DNA of 53,173 nt. Source: Corynebacterium sp. Its GTDB lineage: Bacteria > Actinomycetota > Actinomycetes > Mycobacteriales > Mycobacteriaceae. Below are positions 23,882 to 37,451 of this stretch, one piece after another (positions within the stretch are counted from its first letter, which is position 1; each line of letters starts with the position of its first letter). Under the pieces are notes generated by a model. It did not search any database. It saw only the letters and a list, made by a program, of their open reading frames with translations, and was not told where the DNA came from. The stretch spans positions 14,710 through 67,882 of the forward strand of contig NZ_JAUNLS010000014.1 of the NCBI RefSeq assembly GCF_030532325.1, written 5' to 3'. A program made the position numbers and the translations under genes.

Positions 23882-25942
23882 ATGACCGACGCCCTCGTCC
23901 CCAGCTACCTCTCCGGCCAGTGGGTCACTCCCGAGAACCCTACCCGCGTAACCGAGGTCCACGATTCCTCCACCGGCGAGCTCGTAGCCCTAGTCAGCGC
24001 TGAGGGCCTCGACATCGCCGGCGCCATCGACTACGCCCGCACCACCGGGCGCGCAGGGCTACAAGAGCTCACCTTCCACGAGCGCGCCCTCAAGCTCAAG
24101 CAGCTGGCCCTCTACCTGCAGGATCACCGCGATGAACTCAACCAGCTGGCGCATAAGGCCGGCGCCAACAAGCGCGATAACTTCGTCGACGTCGACGGCG
24201 GCATCTCCACCATGTTCACCTTCTCCTCCAAGGGCCGCCGCGAGATGCCCAATGCCACCGTCATGCCCGACGGCGAACCGGAGGTCTTTGCCAAGGACGG
24301 CTCCTTCCTCGGCCGCCACATCTACACCTCCATCCCCGGCGTGGCCGTGCAGATCAACGCCTTCAACTTCCCGGTGTGGGGCATGCTGGAGAAGTTCGCC
24401 CCGGCCTTCATCGCCGGCGTGCCGTCCATCGTCAAGCCCGCCACCCCCACCGGCTACGTCACCGAGGCCTGCGTGCGCCTCATGATTGACTCCGGCATCC
24501 TGCCCGAGGGCAGCCTCCAGCTCATCTCCGGCTCCGCCCGCGACCTGCTGGATTACCTGGACTACCGCGATCACGTAACCTTCACCGGCTCGGCGGCCAC
24601 CGCCCACGCGCTGCGCAACCACCGCAACGTCATCGAGGGTGGTGTGCAGTTCAGCTCCGAGGCAGACTCCCTCAACGCCGCCATCCTGGGCACGGACGTC
24701 ACCGAGGACTCCCCCGAGTTCGAGGCCTTTGTCAAGGCCGTCTTCAACGAGATGACCTCCAAGGCCGGCCAGAAGTGCACCGCCATCCGCCGCGCAATCG
24801 TTCCCAACCAGCTCGTGGAGCCCGCCATCGCCGCCCTCTCCGCGCGTCTGAAGGACAAGGTGGTCGTGGGCGATCCACGCGATGAGAACGCCACCATGGG
24901 CCCGCTGGTCTCGGTGGACCAGCGCAAGGACGTCGCGGAGGCAGTTGAGAAGCTCAAGGCCGCCGGCGGCGAGGTGGTCTACGGCGGCGAGGAGCTCGAG
25001 GGTGCCTTCTTCTCCCCCACCATCCTGCGCTTTGCCGATAACCGCGCGGAGGCCGTCCACTCCACCGAGGCCTTCGGCCCCGTGGTCTCCTTCCTGGGCT
25101 ACGACTCCCCCGCTGAGGCCGTTGAGCTCGCCGCCCTGGGCGCTGGCTCCCTCGTGGCCTCCGTCATCACCCACGACGGCGACCTCGCCCGCGACTACGC
25201 CCTGGGCATCGCCGCCCACCACGGCCGCCTCCACTTCCTGGACCGCGACGACGCCAAGACCTCCACCGGCCACGGCTCTCCCCTGCCCCACCTGGTGCAC
25301 GGCGGCCCGGGCCGCGCCGGCGGTGGTGAGGAGCTCGGCGGCGTGCGTGGCATCAAGCACTACATGCAGCGCACCGCCGTGCAAGGCACCCCGGATCACC
25401 TCACCGCCATCATCGGCCAGTGGCACCGCGGCGCCGCCGTACAGCGCGTCACCCGCGCCGATGTTGAAGCCGGCCGCGGCACCCACCCCTTCCGCAAGGA
25501 CCTAGCAACCCTGCGCATTGGTGATCAATTCGCCTCCGAGCTACGCAAGGTCTCGCTGGAGGACATCACCGCCTTTGCCAACACCACCGGGGATACCTTC
25601 TACGCGCACACCGATGAGGAGGCCGCCACGGCCAACCCCTTCTTCCCCCGCCGCGTGGCCCACGGCTACCTGCTGGTCTCCTGGGCCGCGGGCCTGTTCG
25701 TGGAACCCGCCCCGGGCCCGGTGCTGGCCAACTACGGCCTGGAGAACCTGCGCTTTATCACCCCGGTGACCTACGATGACTCCATCCGCGTGGAGCTCAC
25801 CGCCAAGCGCATCACCCCGCGCGTGACGGATGATTACGGCGAGGTCTGCTGGGATGCCGTGCTCTACAACCAGAACGATGAGATTGTGGCGACCTATGAC
25901 GTGCTCACCCTCGTGGAGAAGGTCAACACCACCTACGCCTAA
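23882..25942 (+). CDS. paaZ: Bifunctional oxepin-CoA hydrolase / semialdehyde dehydrogenase PaaZ
   Basis: Opens the oxepin-CoA ring and oxidises the resulting aldehyde to 3-oxo-5,6-dehydrosuberyl-CoA. Length 686 aa. The N-terminal aldehyde dehydrogenase domain (about 1-520) has [20 protein letters not shown] (about 154-173) and the catalytic Cys in [20 protein letters not shown] (about 291-310). The C-terminal MaoC-like hydratase (about 540-686) has [18 protein letters not shown] with the catalytic Asp/His pair and [20 protein letters not shown]. It is separated from the rest of the paa genes by kdp. The last 28 bp of the gene region are duplicated at 28329. Confidence 0.96.
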
Positions 25943-25943
25943 C
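25916..25943 (+). repeat. 28-bp direct repeat, left copy (paaZ 3' end)
   Basis: This segment begins GAGAAGGTCAAC, ends ACGCCTAAC, and includes the last codons and stop of paaZ. An identical 28-bp copy is at 28329-28356. The two bound a 2.4-kb segment with a single gene, resembling the duplicated core left when an element integrates at the 3' end of a gene and restores it. Confidence 0.8.
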
Positions 25944-25987
25944 TCAAGCACACCGCTGCATCCCCGGGCTTCCGGCCACGTTTCTCA

Positions 25988-26063
25988 AGAGCTCGGCGGC
26001 ATCGTCCGAGCTCTACTTGATTCCTAATCGCATTAAGGCCCAACACACACCAGGCTGTTGGGC
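25988..26063 (+). terminator. Hairpins downstream of paaZ
   Basis: Two strong inverted repeats follow paaZ: AGAGCTCGG/CCGAGCTCT at 25988-26014 (9-bp stem, extended by flanking TCAAG/CTTGA) and GCCCAACA/TGTTGGGC at 26038-26063 (8-bp stem). Neither is followed by a real U-run, so their role as terminators is plausible but not certain; they lie inside the inserted segment. Confidence 0.45.
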
Positions 26064-26114
26064 GATGCGACCTAGTTGTGTTTGCCATGAGTTGTTGTTC
26101 GTAGGCCACGGCAG

Positions 26115-26286
26115 CTCAAAACAACTGTAAACAACTCTGAAACAACTCCGATCAACTATCGTGAGCTGCGCCGATACCACCATCGAGCACGCATCTCTTC
26201 TCTTTTCTCGCTACGTAGTTGTTGCGGAGTTGTTTCAGAGTTGTTTTTTCGTCGCATCCACAACAGAAAAACAACTTCCTGGGAAA
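26115..26286 (+). repeat. ~170-bp direct repeat, left copy, with 11-bp iterons and 22-bp inverted repeat
   Basis: Nearly identical to 28080-28251: the first ~98 bases are the same, then about ten differences accumulate. Inside it, AAACAACT units recur every 11 bp from about 26118 to 26150, and the reverse AGTTGTTT units recur every 11 bp from about 26215 to 26250. The arms at 26129-26150 and 26225-26246 form a perfect 22-bp inverted repeat spaced by about 74 bp. It ends at the start of the AlbA_2 gene, whose -10 TACAAT (26290-26295) lies just beyond. Confidence 0.85.
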
Positions 26287-26301
26287 ATGTACAATGTCCC
26301 C

Positions 26302-28035
26302 ATGCCCTCAGGAATGGATCTCTTACCCACCCACGTATGTGACGCCCTCGACGCTATTTGGAAGGGCGAAAATGCCGATGCTGTCGAATCTGAGGTTTTG
26401 GAGTTCAAAGAGGATCCTGCCGCGTTGCCCGATGAAAAGCGTCGGGGCGGTAATCCCGAAGCGGCCATTATCGAGAAGCTCATCGATGAGTCAGTGTGCC
26501 TTGCAAACGGAGACAGTAGTTCGGGGCATATCATCCTCGGCGTCAGCGACAAGGTGGGCGGCCCCGAGGGATTTAGCGGGACTTCGATGGATCCGCAATC
26601 TATCGAAAAGAAGATTTTCAACGGAACCAAACCGAACCTGCGAGTCGAGGCCACTGAGATTGAGTTTCATGGCACTCGTCTCATTGTAATTCGTGTCCCG
26701 GAGGCATTGACTTTCTACCAACGAACCAGAGGCCAAGCCTCGCGCAGAGTAGGCACGTCGTGCGAGCCCGTATCCGAAGAGACCCGACGGGCGATTGCCT
26801 TGGCCAGGGCAAACCCTGACTATTCCAACACACTTTCCACCCGCAGCGTAGAAGACATCGACCTTCTTTCGCTCGCCGAAGCACGCCGCCTTTTGCAAGT
26901 AAAGCGCAATACGTCCGGTGAAAACGCTCACGTACCTGAAACCACATTGGGACTATTGCGCGAACTAGGACTTCTCGACGAAAGCGGCAGGCTCAAACGC
27001 GCGGGCGAAATCTTGCTACTGCCGAATGAGCAGCCACACGTCAGTATCCGCCACTTATGGCGTTCGATGATCGGTGCGGCCCCAAAGGTCACTGAGATTT
27101 CCGCACCTCTGATTGAAGCTCTCCCCCAGATACTGCGACTCGTTTCCGAGCGCGGCGGCCAAGAAATCGAGCGTATTCAGCTCGACAACGGCCAGGAATC
27201 CGCCGTCCCGCGATTCCCTGGTCAAGCTGTTGATGAAGCGATTACTAACGCTGTCATTCACCGTGATTGGCAGCTCACACGCCCCATCGTCATCGAGCAA
27301 TCTCCACGAACTCTAAAAATCTTTTCACCCGGATCCCTTCCATATGGGGTCAAAGCAAGCAAGCTTCTTACTACCCCATCGATACCGCGCAACGGGCGCT
27401 TAATGGCATGTATGCGCATGCTGGGGCTGGCCGAGGAGTCCTCCCGAGGCTTCGACCGTATGTGGGCAGCCATGCTACGTACTGGCCGTGAGGTGCCCCA
27501 GGTCACCGCAGAGGAAACCTACGTGGAAGTCGTCATGTCCGCTGGCACACCAGATGCAGATTTTGTGCGGTCACTCCAGCACCTAGAGGAGGCAAAAGGG
27601 CACGATGCAATCTCAAACCTGACTACTCTCATTGTGCTGTGGCACCTATGGCACGCCCCGCTTATCACTTTTGGCCAAGTGAAGGAAAAGACCCATTCCT
27701 CCGACATTGAATCCGAGGAACTGATGAACGAACTGGAAGAGCTCGACATCATCACACGCGTTCGGGATGCAAACGAATGGGTCCTCAGCGATTTCAGCCG
27801 AAAGGCCATGGGCAAAGACGCCGCCGGAGAGCTGGCTACCATCAGCGTCCAGGAGTGGATTGAGGAACGCCTGAGAGCCGGCGAAAAACTGGTAACCACT
27901 GATCTAGCAGAAGAAACTGGTCTTGAGCGTCGCGAAGTTACTAATGTCCTCCGCCACCTCCGTACCTTGGGTCGCGCAATTATTGATCCTGATGGCCCGC
28001 AGCGCGGTCCTCGCACACGGTGGATTGCGCCTTAG
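26302..28035 (+). CDS. AlbA_2 / GHKL-ATPase domain protein (COG2865-like)
   Basis: Predicted DNA- or RNA-binding regulator of the family that joins an AlbA_2 (Schlafen-like) domain to a GHKL-type ATPase fold. ESEVLEFKEDPAALPDEKRR (about residues 28-47) and SSGHIILGVSDKVGGPEGF (about 73-91) are AlbA_2 hallmarks. GQAVDEAITNAVIHRDW (about 308-324) is the GHKL N-box-like motif, and a winged-helix-like C-terminus follows (about 520-560, LAEETGLERREVTNVLRHLR). I prefer ATG 26302: TACAAT at 26290-26295 sits 6 bases before it, so the mRNA may be leaderless; ATG 26287 is an alternative. GC is lower than in the paa genes. It is alone between two long direct repeats, suggesting self-regulation or a mobile cassette. 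Confidence 0.85.
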   Translation: MPSGMDLLPTHVCDALDAIWKGENADAVESEVLEFKEDPAALPDEKRRGGNPEAAIIEKLIDESVCLANGDSSSGHIILGVSDKVGGPEGFSGTSMDPQSIEKKIFNGTKPNLRVEATEIEFHGTRLIVIRVPEALTFYQRTRGQASRRVGTSCEPVSEETRRAIALARANPDYSNTLSTRSVEDIDLLSLAEARRLLQVKRNTSGENAHVPETTLGLLRELGLLDESGRLKRAGEILLLPNEQPHVSIRHLWRSMIGAAPKVTEISAPLIEALPQILRLVSERGGQEIERIQLDNGQESAVPRFPGQAVDEAITNAVIHRDWQLTRPIVIEQSPRTLKIFSPGSLPYGVKASKLLTTPSIPRNGRLMACMRMLGLAEESSRGFDRMWAAMLRTGREVPQVTAEETYVEVVMSAGTPDADFVRSLQHLEEAKGHDAISNLTTLIVLWHLWHAPLITFGQVKEKTHSSDIESEELMNELEELDIITRVRDANEWVLSDFSRKAMGKDAAGELATISVQEWIEERLRAGEKLVTTDLAEETGLERREVTNVLRHLRTLGRAIIDPDGPQRGPRTRWIAP

Positions 28036-28079
28036 TGCACACTGCCGAGTGGACCATTAGCCGACACGACCCATCACAA

Positions 28080-28251
28080 CTCAAAACAACTGTAAACAAC
28101 TCTGAAACAACTCCGATCAACTATCGTGAGCTGCGCCGATACCACCATCGAGCACGCATCTCTTCTCTTTTCTCGCTACATAATTGTTGCGGAGTTGTTT
28201 CAGAGTTGTTTTTCGTCGCAGCCACAACAGAAATCAACTCCCTGGGGAAAT
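28080..28251 (+). repeat. ~170-bp direct repeat, right copy
   Basis: Second copy of the 26115-26286 repeat, including the 11-bp AAACAACT iterons and the perfect 22-bp inverted repeat. Differences from the left copy include ATAATTG for GTAGTTG (around 28180) and one fewer T in the T-run. It is followed by ATGACAATGCC and an early stop, so no AlbA_2 gene follows here. The layout suggests a tandem duplication that lost its second gene, or a control element needed on both sides. Confidence 0.85.
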
Positions 28252-28328
28252 ACCAATGACAATGCCAATCAGCTAGCCTGCTCGATTAAGTTCTTCCCCT
28301 CGGTCAGCTCGCCGGCCCCATCCACACA

Positions 28329-28356
28329 GAGAAGGTCAACACCACCTACGCCTAAC
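28329..28356 (+). repeat. 28-bp direct repeat, right copy
   Basis: Exact copy of 25916-25943 (the end of paaZ). It lies 77 bp after the right long repeat and shortly before an SGNH-hydrolase remnant. Only these 28 bases of paaZ are present, so it looks like an att-type or recombination scar rather than a gene duplication. Confidence 0.8.
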
Positions 28357-28440
28357 CTCTGGAATACCCCGGTAGCTCAGTGCTGGTAGCTTCTCTGGCA
28401 TGCACACACATGGCAAGAATCTAATTAAAGTGACAAACCC

Positions 28441-28725
28441 AGCCTCGCTCTTCCGGGCGCCATTGACGTCGAGCAATTAGATGATGGCTGGCTCTTTCAC
28501 CGCCTGCCCGAGTGGGCCCGCCGCCAATGCGATGACCCACAATTAGCCACGGTGGAAACCCAGCCCAGTGGTGTTCGGCTCGTGTCCTCACCCACGCCAC
28601 CGTCATCGAACTAACGCTTCAGCGCACGCGAGACAGCATCCGCGGCATGCCGCTGCGCCCCGACGGCGTACTCGACATCGTCGTTGATGACGAGCTGCAC
28701 GAGCACAACACCATGACGGGCGGAC
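28441..28725 (+). pseudogene. SGNH-hydrolase N-terminal remnant, frameshifted and truncated
   Basis: Translation from 28441 gives PSLALPGAIDVEQLDDGWLF, HRLPEWARRQCDDPQLATVE and TQPSGVRLV, then goes out of frame near 28590. It resumes in another frame as HATVIELTLQRTRDSIRGMP, LRPDGVLDIVVDDELHEHNT. From memory this matches the N-terminal beta domain of actinobacterial GDSL/SGNH esterases. The catalytic domain (about 250 residues) is absent; the following gene begins at 28780. There is no start codon in the remaining part, so it is a dead fragment. Confidence 0.65.
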
Positions 28726-28779
28726 GCTCTAGGCCCAGCGCGGCAGCGTGCCGGTGTGATTTTCCGTATTCTTTCTTTC

Positions 28780-30456
28780 ATGAGCAAAACTGACCCCATC
28801 ATCATCGTCGGCACCGGCCTGGCCGGCCTCGTTGCGGGCTACGAGGCGCACAAGGGCGGCAAGCACGTCATCTTCCTCGAGCAGGAAAACCGCGCCAACC
28901 TGGGCGGCCAGGCCTTCTGGTCCCTCGGCGGGTTGTTTTACGTGGACTCGCCCGAGCAGAAGATGATGCGGGTCAAGGACTCCGAGGAGCTGGCCTGGCG
29001 GGACTGGGCCAACTCCGCCGACTACGACGATCCCACCGATCCCTCCTCCCACGACTACTGGCCGCAGCGATGGGGCCGCGAGTACGTGCGCTTTGCCGCC
29101 CAGGAAAAGCGCACGTACTTGAAGTCACTCGGGCTCAACGTGCTGCCCACCATCGGCTGGGCCGAGCGCGGCTCCGGAGACGCCTCCGGGCACGGCAACT
29201 CCGTTCCCCGCTTCCACCTGACCTGGGGCACTGGCCCGGAGGTGGTGCGCGTCTTCCGCGAGCCGCTTCTTAAAGCCGAGCAGCACGGCGAGGTGGAGTT
29301 CCACTTCCGCCACCGCGTGGACTCGCTCATCACCGAAGGCCAGCGCGTCGTCGGCGTGCGCGGCAGCGTGCTCGCCCCCACCGACGCTGAGCGTGGCGTG
29401 GCCAGCAACCGGGACGTCGTCAAGCATTTTGAGCTGCGCGGGGCGGCGGTGATCATCGCCACCGGCGGCATCGGCGGCAACCTGGAGAAGGTCCGTGAGA
29501 TGTGGCCGCAGGAGCGCTGGGGTGAGTGCCCCGAGGAACTGGTGCAGGGAGTGCCCGCGCATGTCGACGGCCGCGGCATCGACATCGCCCACGCCGCCGG
29601 CGCCACCCTGGTCAATACTGACCGCATGTGGCACTACCCGGAGGGAATGAGCAACTGGAACAGCATCTGGCCGCAGCACGGCATCCGCATCATCCCCGGG
29701 CCCTCCTCCCTGTGGCTCGATGCCGAGGGCAAGCGGCTTCCCACCAACCTCTTCCCCGGTTCCGACAACCTGGCCGCGCTCGCCCACATCGGGCGCACCG
29801 GCCACGGCTACTCGTGGTTCGTGCTCAACCAGGCCATCGCCGATAAGGAATTCATCTTCTCCGGCTCGGAGCAGAACCCGGATCTCACCGATAAGGAGTT
29901 CACAAAGCTGCTGGGCAAGGTGGGCCCCGGCACCCACGTGGCGGTCAAGGCCTTCATGGACAACGGCATCGACTGGGTGGTGGAGGACTCCCTGGACTCC
30001 TTGGTCGCGAGCATGAACCGCATCAGCCCGCAGGGCGCGCCCGCCATCGACGCCGCCCAGCTGCGCGCCCTCATCGAGGACCGCGATTCCCAGCTGGACA
30101 ATCCCTTCTCCAAGGACGCGCAGGTCAACTACATCCGCATCGCCCGCGGCTTCCTCGGCGATAAACTCGTGCGCTGCGCCGCCCCGCACAAGCTGCTCGA
30201 TCCCTCCAAGGGCCCGCTCATCGCGGTGCGCCTGAAGGTGCTCACCCGCAAAACCCTCGGCGGTATCCAGACCAACCTCGCCGGTCAGTGCCTGAACCCC
30301 GACGGCACAGTGCTGCCCGGGCTCTACGCCTGCGGCGAGGCCGCCGGATTCGGCGGCGGTGGCATGCATGGCAAGAACGCGCTGGAGGGAACCTTCCTGG
30401 GCGGATGCATCCACTCCGGCAAGCGGGTGGGCGAGGCACTCGCCGCGCAGCGCTAG
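28780..30456 (+). CDS. FAD-binding dehydrogenase (fumarate reductase / KstD superfamily)
   Basis: Cytoplasmic flavoprotein oxidoreductase with unknown substrate. The 558-residue product starts with the FAD-binding motif IIIVGTGLAGLVAGYEAHKG (about residues 7-26) and EQENRANLGGQAFWSLGGLF (about 34-53). It ends with the FAD motif LYACGEAAGFGGGGMHGKNA then LEGTFLGGCIHSGK, typical of the family. The start ATG 28780 is preceded by TATTCT at 28767-28772, 7 bases before, so a leaderless mRNA is likely; no ribosome site is seen. Relatives act as ketosteroid dehydrogenases or fumarate reductase-like enzymes, and the context does not decide between them. Confidence 0.85.
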   Translation: MSKTDPIIIVGTGLAGLVAGYEAHKGGKHVIFLEQENRANLGGQAFWSLGGLFYVDSPEQKMMRVKDSEELAWRDWANSADYDDPTDPSSHDYWPQRWGREYVRFAAQEKRTYLKSLGLNVLPTIGWAERGSGDASGHGNSVPRFHLTWGTGPEVVRVFREPLLKAEQHGEVEFHFRHRVDSLITEGQRVVGVRGSVLAPTDAERGVASNRDVVKHFELRGAAVIIATGGIGGNLEKVREMWPQERWGECPEELVQGVPAHVDGRGIDIAHAAGATLVNTDRMWHYPEGMSNWNSIWPQHGIRIIPGPSSLWLDAEGKRLPTNLFPGSDNLAALAHIGRTGHGYSWFVLNQAIADKEFIFSGSEQNPDLTDKEFTKLLGKVGPGTHVAVKAFMDNGIDWVVEDSLDSLVASMNRISPQGAPAIDAAQLRALIEDRDSQLDNPFSKDAQVNYIRIARGFLGDKLVRCAAPHKLLDPSKGPLIAVRLKVLTRKTLGGIQTNLAGQCLNPDGTVLPGLYACGEAAGFGGGGMHGKNALEGTFLGGCIHSGKRVGEALAAQR

Positions 30457-34492: not shown

Positions 34493-37351
<2,859 letters not shown>

Positions 37352-37451
37352 GCTTAGACAGTGTAGTAGGTGCCACGCTTGGCGACGCCCCACGCCCCGC
37401 CCTCTCACCTCGTGGAACGCCCAGGCGAATCAGCACTGTTCAATGGGCACA

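Follow-up and report, generated by a model that had tools for sequence, protein, structure and literature searches.

LTR elements are bounded by promoter-bearing long direct terminal repeats, which are near-identical at insertion and leave a solo LTR after recombination. Integron cassettes combine a single gene with a structured site, attC, and loss of the gene together with one site leaves one site in place. RAYT genes, in turn, are flanked by REP sequences. Proteins of the COG2865 type, with AlbA_2 and HATPase_c_4 domains and a solved relative (3LMM), have the same domain make-up as the protein studied here; no report of repeats flanking genes of this family was found among the titles and abstract openings listed, few of them from subscription journals. 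We analysed such a gene in a 53,173-nt stretch of Corynebacterium sp. DNA (the window; contig NZ_JAUNLS010000014.1), where it stands between two long direct repeats. Boxes of this layout at other places, together with single leftover copies in relatives, suggest a kind of small mobile element that we have not found described.

The gene and its twin repeats

The upstream repeat (U, 26112-26288, forward strand) and the downstream repeat (D, 28077-28251, forward strand) are in direct orientation, about 175 bp long and 94.9% identical over 177 columns of a gapped alignment. A repeat search returned an ungapped match of 137 nt at 98% (26112-26248 against 28077-28213) with a 25-nt continuation. The initial annotation, which had described near-identical direct repeats framing a single AlbA_2/GHKL gene, is confirmed by this alignment. 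Only one gene lies between U and D (26302-28035, forward strand, 577 aa), with a G+C content of 0.557 against 0.643 for the window, and a search of the 33 contigs of the host genome revealed no copy of the repeat beyond these two.

The protein contains SLFN_AlbA_2 (residues 29-157, E = 9.6e-15) and HATPase_c_4 (residues 329-412, E = 3.7e-12) domains, both above the curated Pfam cut-off, and thus belongs to the AlbA_2/HATPase_c_4 (COG2865-type) proteins; it is also related to the solved chain 3lmm_A (E = 2.5e-28). The Schlafen-type motif ExxxxExK is present as E29-x4-E34-x-K36. In the form ExxxxE/DxK it is conserved in 40/41 and 20/21 proteins, D being commoner than E at position 34, and E312 and N316 of the GHKL N-box do not vary among the aligned sequences (two loci, besides ten that were truncated, duplicates or broken, were left out of the protein alignment). 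In SLFN14, ExxxxExK is reported to bind metal, to be required for RNA cleavage and to resemble a restriction-enzyme motif (PMC12215978). On sequence grounds the window protein is predicted to be a DNA-binding, nuclease-like ATPase.

Neither Pfam nor NCBIfam revealed a recombinase domain in the protein or a transposase by which an insertion sequence could be recognised, and no NCBIfam model matched it. The two Pfam domains were the only ones found and neither is a reverse transcriptase, as an LTR retroelement would have; nor does the single gene between the repeats encode the integrase domain of an integrase-type genomic island. The repeat had no match in phage and plasmid collections and the protein had partial matches alone, at ~25-35% identity, on which grounds a phage or plasmid origin was set aside. 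A PHROGs family named DNA helicase matches the protein (E = 1.1e-29), and matches in a defence library (pAgo, Aga) were confined to residues 292-411, approximately the GHKL region.

Read from the left, the repeat comprises direct 11-bp iterons (of the AAACAACT type), the core TGAGCTGC (26162-26169 in U), about 50 bp and inverted iterons, which form perfect 22-nt arms; after a spacer come one last iteron in direct orientation and CCTGGG(G)AAAT (CCTGGGAAAAT in U). The arms of this inverted repeat lie at 26129-26150 and 26225-26246 in U (span 26129-26246), and at 28094-28115 and 28190-28211 in D (span 28094-28211). As a single strand U folds far more strongly than shuffled sequences (z = -8.4 for one strand and -10.0 for the other). 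Rfam matched nothing in 25800-28500, for which reason a known structured RNA was set aside.

Because TACAAT, a likely -10 box (26290-26295, forward strand), follows U, with the start codon 6 nt further on, U is very probably the promoter of the AlbA_2/GHKL gene and likely its operator region; the -10 box is missing from D. The same boundary appears elsewhere: in nine non-window loci that have the CTGGG box in both copies, mean identity between U and D is at least 0.67 at this box and the next few bases and drops to a background level of 0.11-0.22 at the -10 box. An aborted gene start had also been proposed after the right repeat. A short ORF (ATGACAATGCC...TAG) is indeed present there, but since the alignment of U and D ends upstream of it, there is no sign that it is the relic of a second gene start.

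Recurrence in other genomes

Fifty loci were compared: the window, 46 loci picked by protein match from 201 genomes of the genus, and another three taken from a genome collection. A box was scored where one copy of a direct repeat (E 1e-6) lay at most 350 nt before the gene and the other at most 450 nt behind it. One locus (G103b) was untestable; the 49 testable loci include the window, one genome entered twice (as G104 and as KPL1814) and that genome's near relative ACRPS. Flanking repeat pairs were found at 34/49 family loci compared with 3/165 control ORFs, these being the other long ORFs of the same loci as called by a crude ORF caller, so that the layout is more frequent in the family than expected by chance. 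Two of the three control ORFs with a box are themselves AlbA_2 genes, one an HATPase/AlbA_2 gene of another kind (G062) and one a distant paralog (G049); the third is an AAA ATPase (G008). Some of the 34 pairs are weak, such as those of 30 nt in G129 and 45 nt in G142, or that at 71% in G148. The ATPase gene of the G008 locus (L073:9811-11001, AAA_16, 396 aa) sits between 63-bp palindromic direct repeats at 98% and is perhaps another one-gene box, built on a different protein family.

D was not detected in 15/49 loci, 13 of which keep the inverted array of U, an array present in 43/50 loci and in 10/388 control windows. Where D was found, its matched part begins within the stop codon or directly behind it in 16 of the 34 loci. 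At L065, L086, L095 and L107 at least two repeat arrays lie in tandem upstream of the gene and a downstream copy was not detected. Iterons differ between subfamilies, part of which keep the form of the core: TGANC[TA]G[CGT] also occurs in the repeats of other AlbA_2 families, whose iterons are unrelated. It was found in U in 24/33 and 10/19 cases, against 141/1220 control windows (G069 was left out of this count), and in 0/6 of the paralog and class repeats.

Among distant paralogs (25-30% identity) a box with other iterons was present in 5/10, and in the subgroup at 39% identity repeats were present in 0/9 testable loci. A class-level protein search at E 1e-60 matched 4/394 genomes, the window's own among them; one of three loci outside the genus has a flanking repeat, and an Arcanobacterium locus also has one. 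AlbA_2 genes as a whole occur in 133/201 genomes of the genus and 39/149 of the phylum. When 40 further AlbA_2 (PF04326) genes of the genus were taken from the search list blind to their flanks, 19 had a box, two of them less clear (not adjacent in G052, 33 nt in G013). Phylum-wide, some flanking repeat was seen at 4/20 AlbA_2 genes, which are not counted as support since the three viewed do not share the same anatomy. One of the three holds a block that by eye resembles part of a tRNA gene; ARAGORN reported no tRNA gene there.

The initial annotation had allowed that the repeat might be a common dispersed sequence unlinked to AlbA_2 genes. A search of the 200 other genomes gave a different picture: matches occurred in 24, with an AlbA_2 gene no more than 150 nt away in 15, a gene relic alongside in 2 and no gene in 7. 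Of these last, 5 are solo repeats standing where a relative carries the gene, and the other 2 are partial remnants. A dispersed-repeat model was rejected, as U and D are the sole copies in the host genome and matches elsewhere are mostly tied to AlbA_2 genes or their sites.

Occupied sites, empty sites and solo repeats

Unoccupied sites were found for five loci (G003, G026, G084, G069 and the window). At the window site, six relatives have the paaZ-like gene followed by the FAD gene across a short gap, without repeats. In the window itself the upstream aldehyde dehydrogenase/MaoC (paaZ-like) gene has its final 28 nt (25916-25943, forward strand) repeated outside D (28329-28356, forward strand), a possible target duplication that the initial annotation does not mention. 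Some 420 nt (28357-28780) separate the right copy from the FAD gene, the gap in the six relatives being much shorter, and a SGNH-hydrolase-like reading of 28581-28757 had no Pfam match.

The G003 unit is absent from G176, which is contiguous at this point but for ~18 nt of iteron-like sequence (L134) that could be either a footprint or a target; by eye, no such sequence is present at the site in G029 and G094, and G124 shows it in a few short stretches. Convergent genes that almost touch in G141 flank the G026 unit, and the two genes on either side of the G084 unit are separated by 28 nt in G056. The final 153 nt of the gene preceding the G069 unit recur on the far side of that unit, with the empty site in G158. 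The additional DNA at the window, G026 and G084 sites extends 20 to several hundred nt past the repeats. Target duplications measure 28 nt in the window and 153 nt in G069, with none clear at G003 or G026, and a regular duplication, sought in all 50 loci, was clear in few. No empty site was found for G008b, nor for G121 with its pair identical over 105 nt.

The upstream neighbour is oriented towards the unit in 24/34 loci, in 13 of them within 40 nt of it (crude gene calls). An EamA transporter gene identified by Pfam lies directly upstream of the repeat at L097:4883-5821, and an EamA-like gene, recognised by similarity or by eye, is upstream of a boxed or solo repeat in L101, L093, L113, L121, L125 and L046. 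Boxes also occur at differing points near leuS (L068, L082, L083, L087, L088, L096, L070, L110, L114 and window 34493-37408), making this neighbourhood a possible insertion hot spot.

U and its own D are reciprocal best matches in 15/34 loci, including the window. In 13/34 the best match of U is another U and that of D another D, and 11 of these 13 are at a site common to another genome; six loci fit neither pattern. Both patterns would be expected of copies that are made identical when inserted and afterwards diverge separately while inherited in place. Five genomes carry one full repeat, solo and without a gene, where a relative has its box, with the outer flanks of both U and D aligning to the two sides of the solo repeat: G121 (boxes in G158 and G179), G059 and G103 (box in G195), G140 (box in G033) and G063 (box in G128). 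The right-hand flank matches are short for G140 and G059, and from the core onward the solo repeats of G121 and G059 are closer to D. About two iterons replace the box of the G064 site in G100, and G192 has another partial array without a gene. Both repeats are kept around a decayed gene in G011 and G185. No two near-identical copies in one genome were present among the matches listed; the two copies in G103 (160 contigs) have upstream flanks that are 89% similar.

Position on the chromosome was compared in 15 genomes whose main replicon carries both dnaA and the element. All 18 elements, which are not all independent because some are at a common site, lie within 0.134 of the chromosome length (13.4%) from dnaA. 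Sixteen are within 0.10, where the expected share is 0.2, and a seventeenth (G089) is at 0.1003. Among the best 150 of 212 matches to rve transposases in those genomes, 26 were within 0.10 (Mann-Whitney p = 1.8e-8), as were 13/26 other AlbA_2 genes among the matches listed. This origin-proximal bias would be a second clue to the behaviour of the element.

Competing readings and known systems

We regard the locus as probably (roughly 60%) a small one-gene mobile element, ordered repeat, AlbA_2/GHKL gene, repeat, in which the repeats would be the ends and the left one also operator and promoter. The comparisons show like units at different sites, some of them empty in relatives, with twin ends and with solo remnants at gene-free sites; from these we infer that the unit of repeat, gene and repeat is mobile. 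The AlbA_2 protein would bind the iterons and repress its own promoter at U. Recombination between the twin repeats would remove the gene and one repeat as a circle, the solo repeat staying behind, and a copy would re-enter at another place, usually close behind the end of a gene and not far from the replication origin, both ends becoming identical during re-entry.

That the AlbA_2 protein itself, which keeps the ExxxxE/DxK motif and a GHKL ATPase domain, and not host enzymes, cuts the DNA in the recombination step is a tentative suggestion, less likely than not. We are more doubtful still that AlbA_2 genes form a new class of DNA element, with a Schlafen-type nuclease and GHKL ATPase as recombinase, a shared core in long operator-like direct terminal repeats and targeting of origin-near gene ends. 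If AlbA_2 genes are the genes of single-gene elements, many vague annotations would have to be read differently, and an LTR-like DNA element in bacteria would add a new mode of gene movement.

One option offered by the initial annotation was that the repeat is needed on both sides, as ends, recombination sites or paired operators. Pair identity, solo repeats and empty sites give good support to ends. Paired operators are weakened because D so often goes undetected while the upstream inverted array is kept; for the same reason D would seem unneeded for the daily work of the gene, which fits a spent end. Several points count against a mobile element, however: solo repeats can also come from plain homologous deletion, the protein has no known recombinase or transposase domain, target duplications are inconsistent, the additional DNA reaches past the repeats at three sites, no genome among the matches listed has two near-identical copies, no empty site was found for G121 and G008b, the subgroup at 39% identity is without repeats, some pairs are weak, six loci fit neither best-match pattern and D is undetectable in those same 15 loci.

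Alternatively, the gene could be cargo, and the unit be moved in trans by recombinases of the host, a phage or an island; the repeat, perhaps its TGA[GC]CTGC core, would be the attachment site and AlbA_2 only a regulator or defence payload. The left and right attachment sites of phages and ICEs share a core alone. The duplicated block is here mostly 90-175 bp, and the paralog and class repeats do not have the TGANC[TA]G[CGT] core, so we consider this explanation rather unlikely, even though the protein is without a recombinase domain and the core is enriched in U. Mobility is also reported for an E. coli island that has short direct repeats and no recombinase of its own (PMC5426353), which likewise favours a cargo gene.

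In another reading the gene is a nuclease or defence gene of an ordinary kind that regulates itself through operator arrays; D would be a duplicated operator with a regulatory role such as looping or insulation, and the gene would merely spread with its neighbourhood by homologous recombination. This would agree with the likely promoter in U, the widespread inverted array, the resemblance of iterons and inverted repeats to protein-binding arrays and the retention of the unit over long divergence in genomes that share a site. It leaves distinct insertion sites, solo repeats and the identity of each repeat with its own partner unexplained, and D looks dispensable given how often it goes undetected beside a retained U array; we therefore judge it improbable. 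A collapsed tandem duplication of repeat and gene with the second gene deleted, the other origin offered by the initial annotation, has parallels in tandem gene pieces (a second partial copy in G196) and in the extra upstream arrays of several loci, but was set aside as very improbable because it would have to recur independently at many sites, each time with the copies breaking off at roughly one place ahead of the -10 box, and because the window alignment shows no second-gene start after D.

Compared with described systems, the one-gene mobile element proposed here shares direct repeats, excision (inferred for the box) and the lack of a recombinase gene with the E. coli H47 genomic island, which is reported to be mobile (PMC5426353); the repeats of the island are short, whereas those of the box are long operator-like iteron blocks in several subfamilies. 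Like a RAYT gene, the boxed gene is a single-copy gene between its own palindromic repeats, but it has no HUH Y1 transposase domain and its repeat is undispersed in the genome. As in an integron cassette, there is a single gene, a structured site beginning at the stop codon and one site left behind; unlike a cassette, the box has its own promoter, scattered single units and no Rfam match in its region. Finally, although the box has neither reverse transcriptase nor integrase, carries one DNA-binding, nuclease-like ATPase gene and resides in a bacterial host, it resembles LTR elements in its promoter-bearing terminal repeats, in the identity of the pair at insertion and in its solo copies, which were found here.
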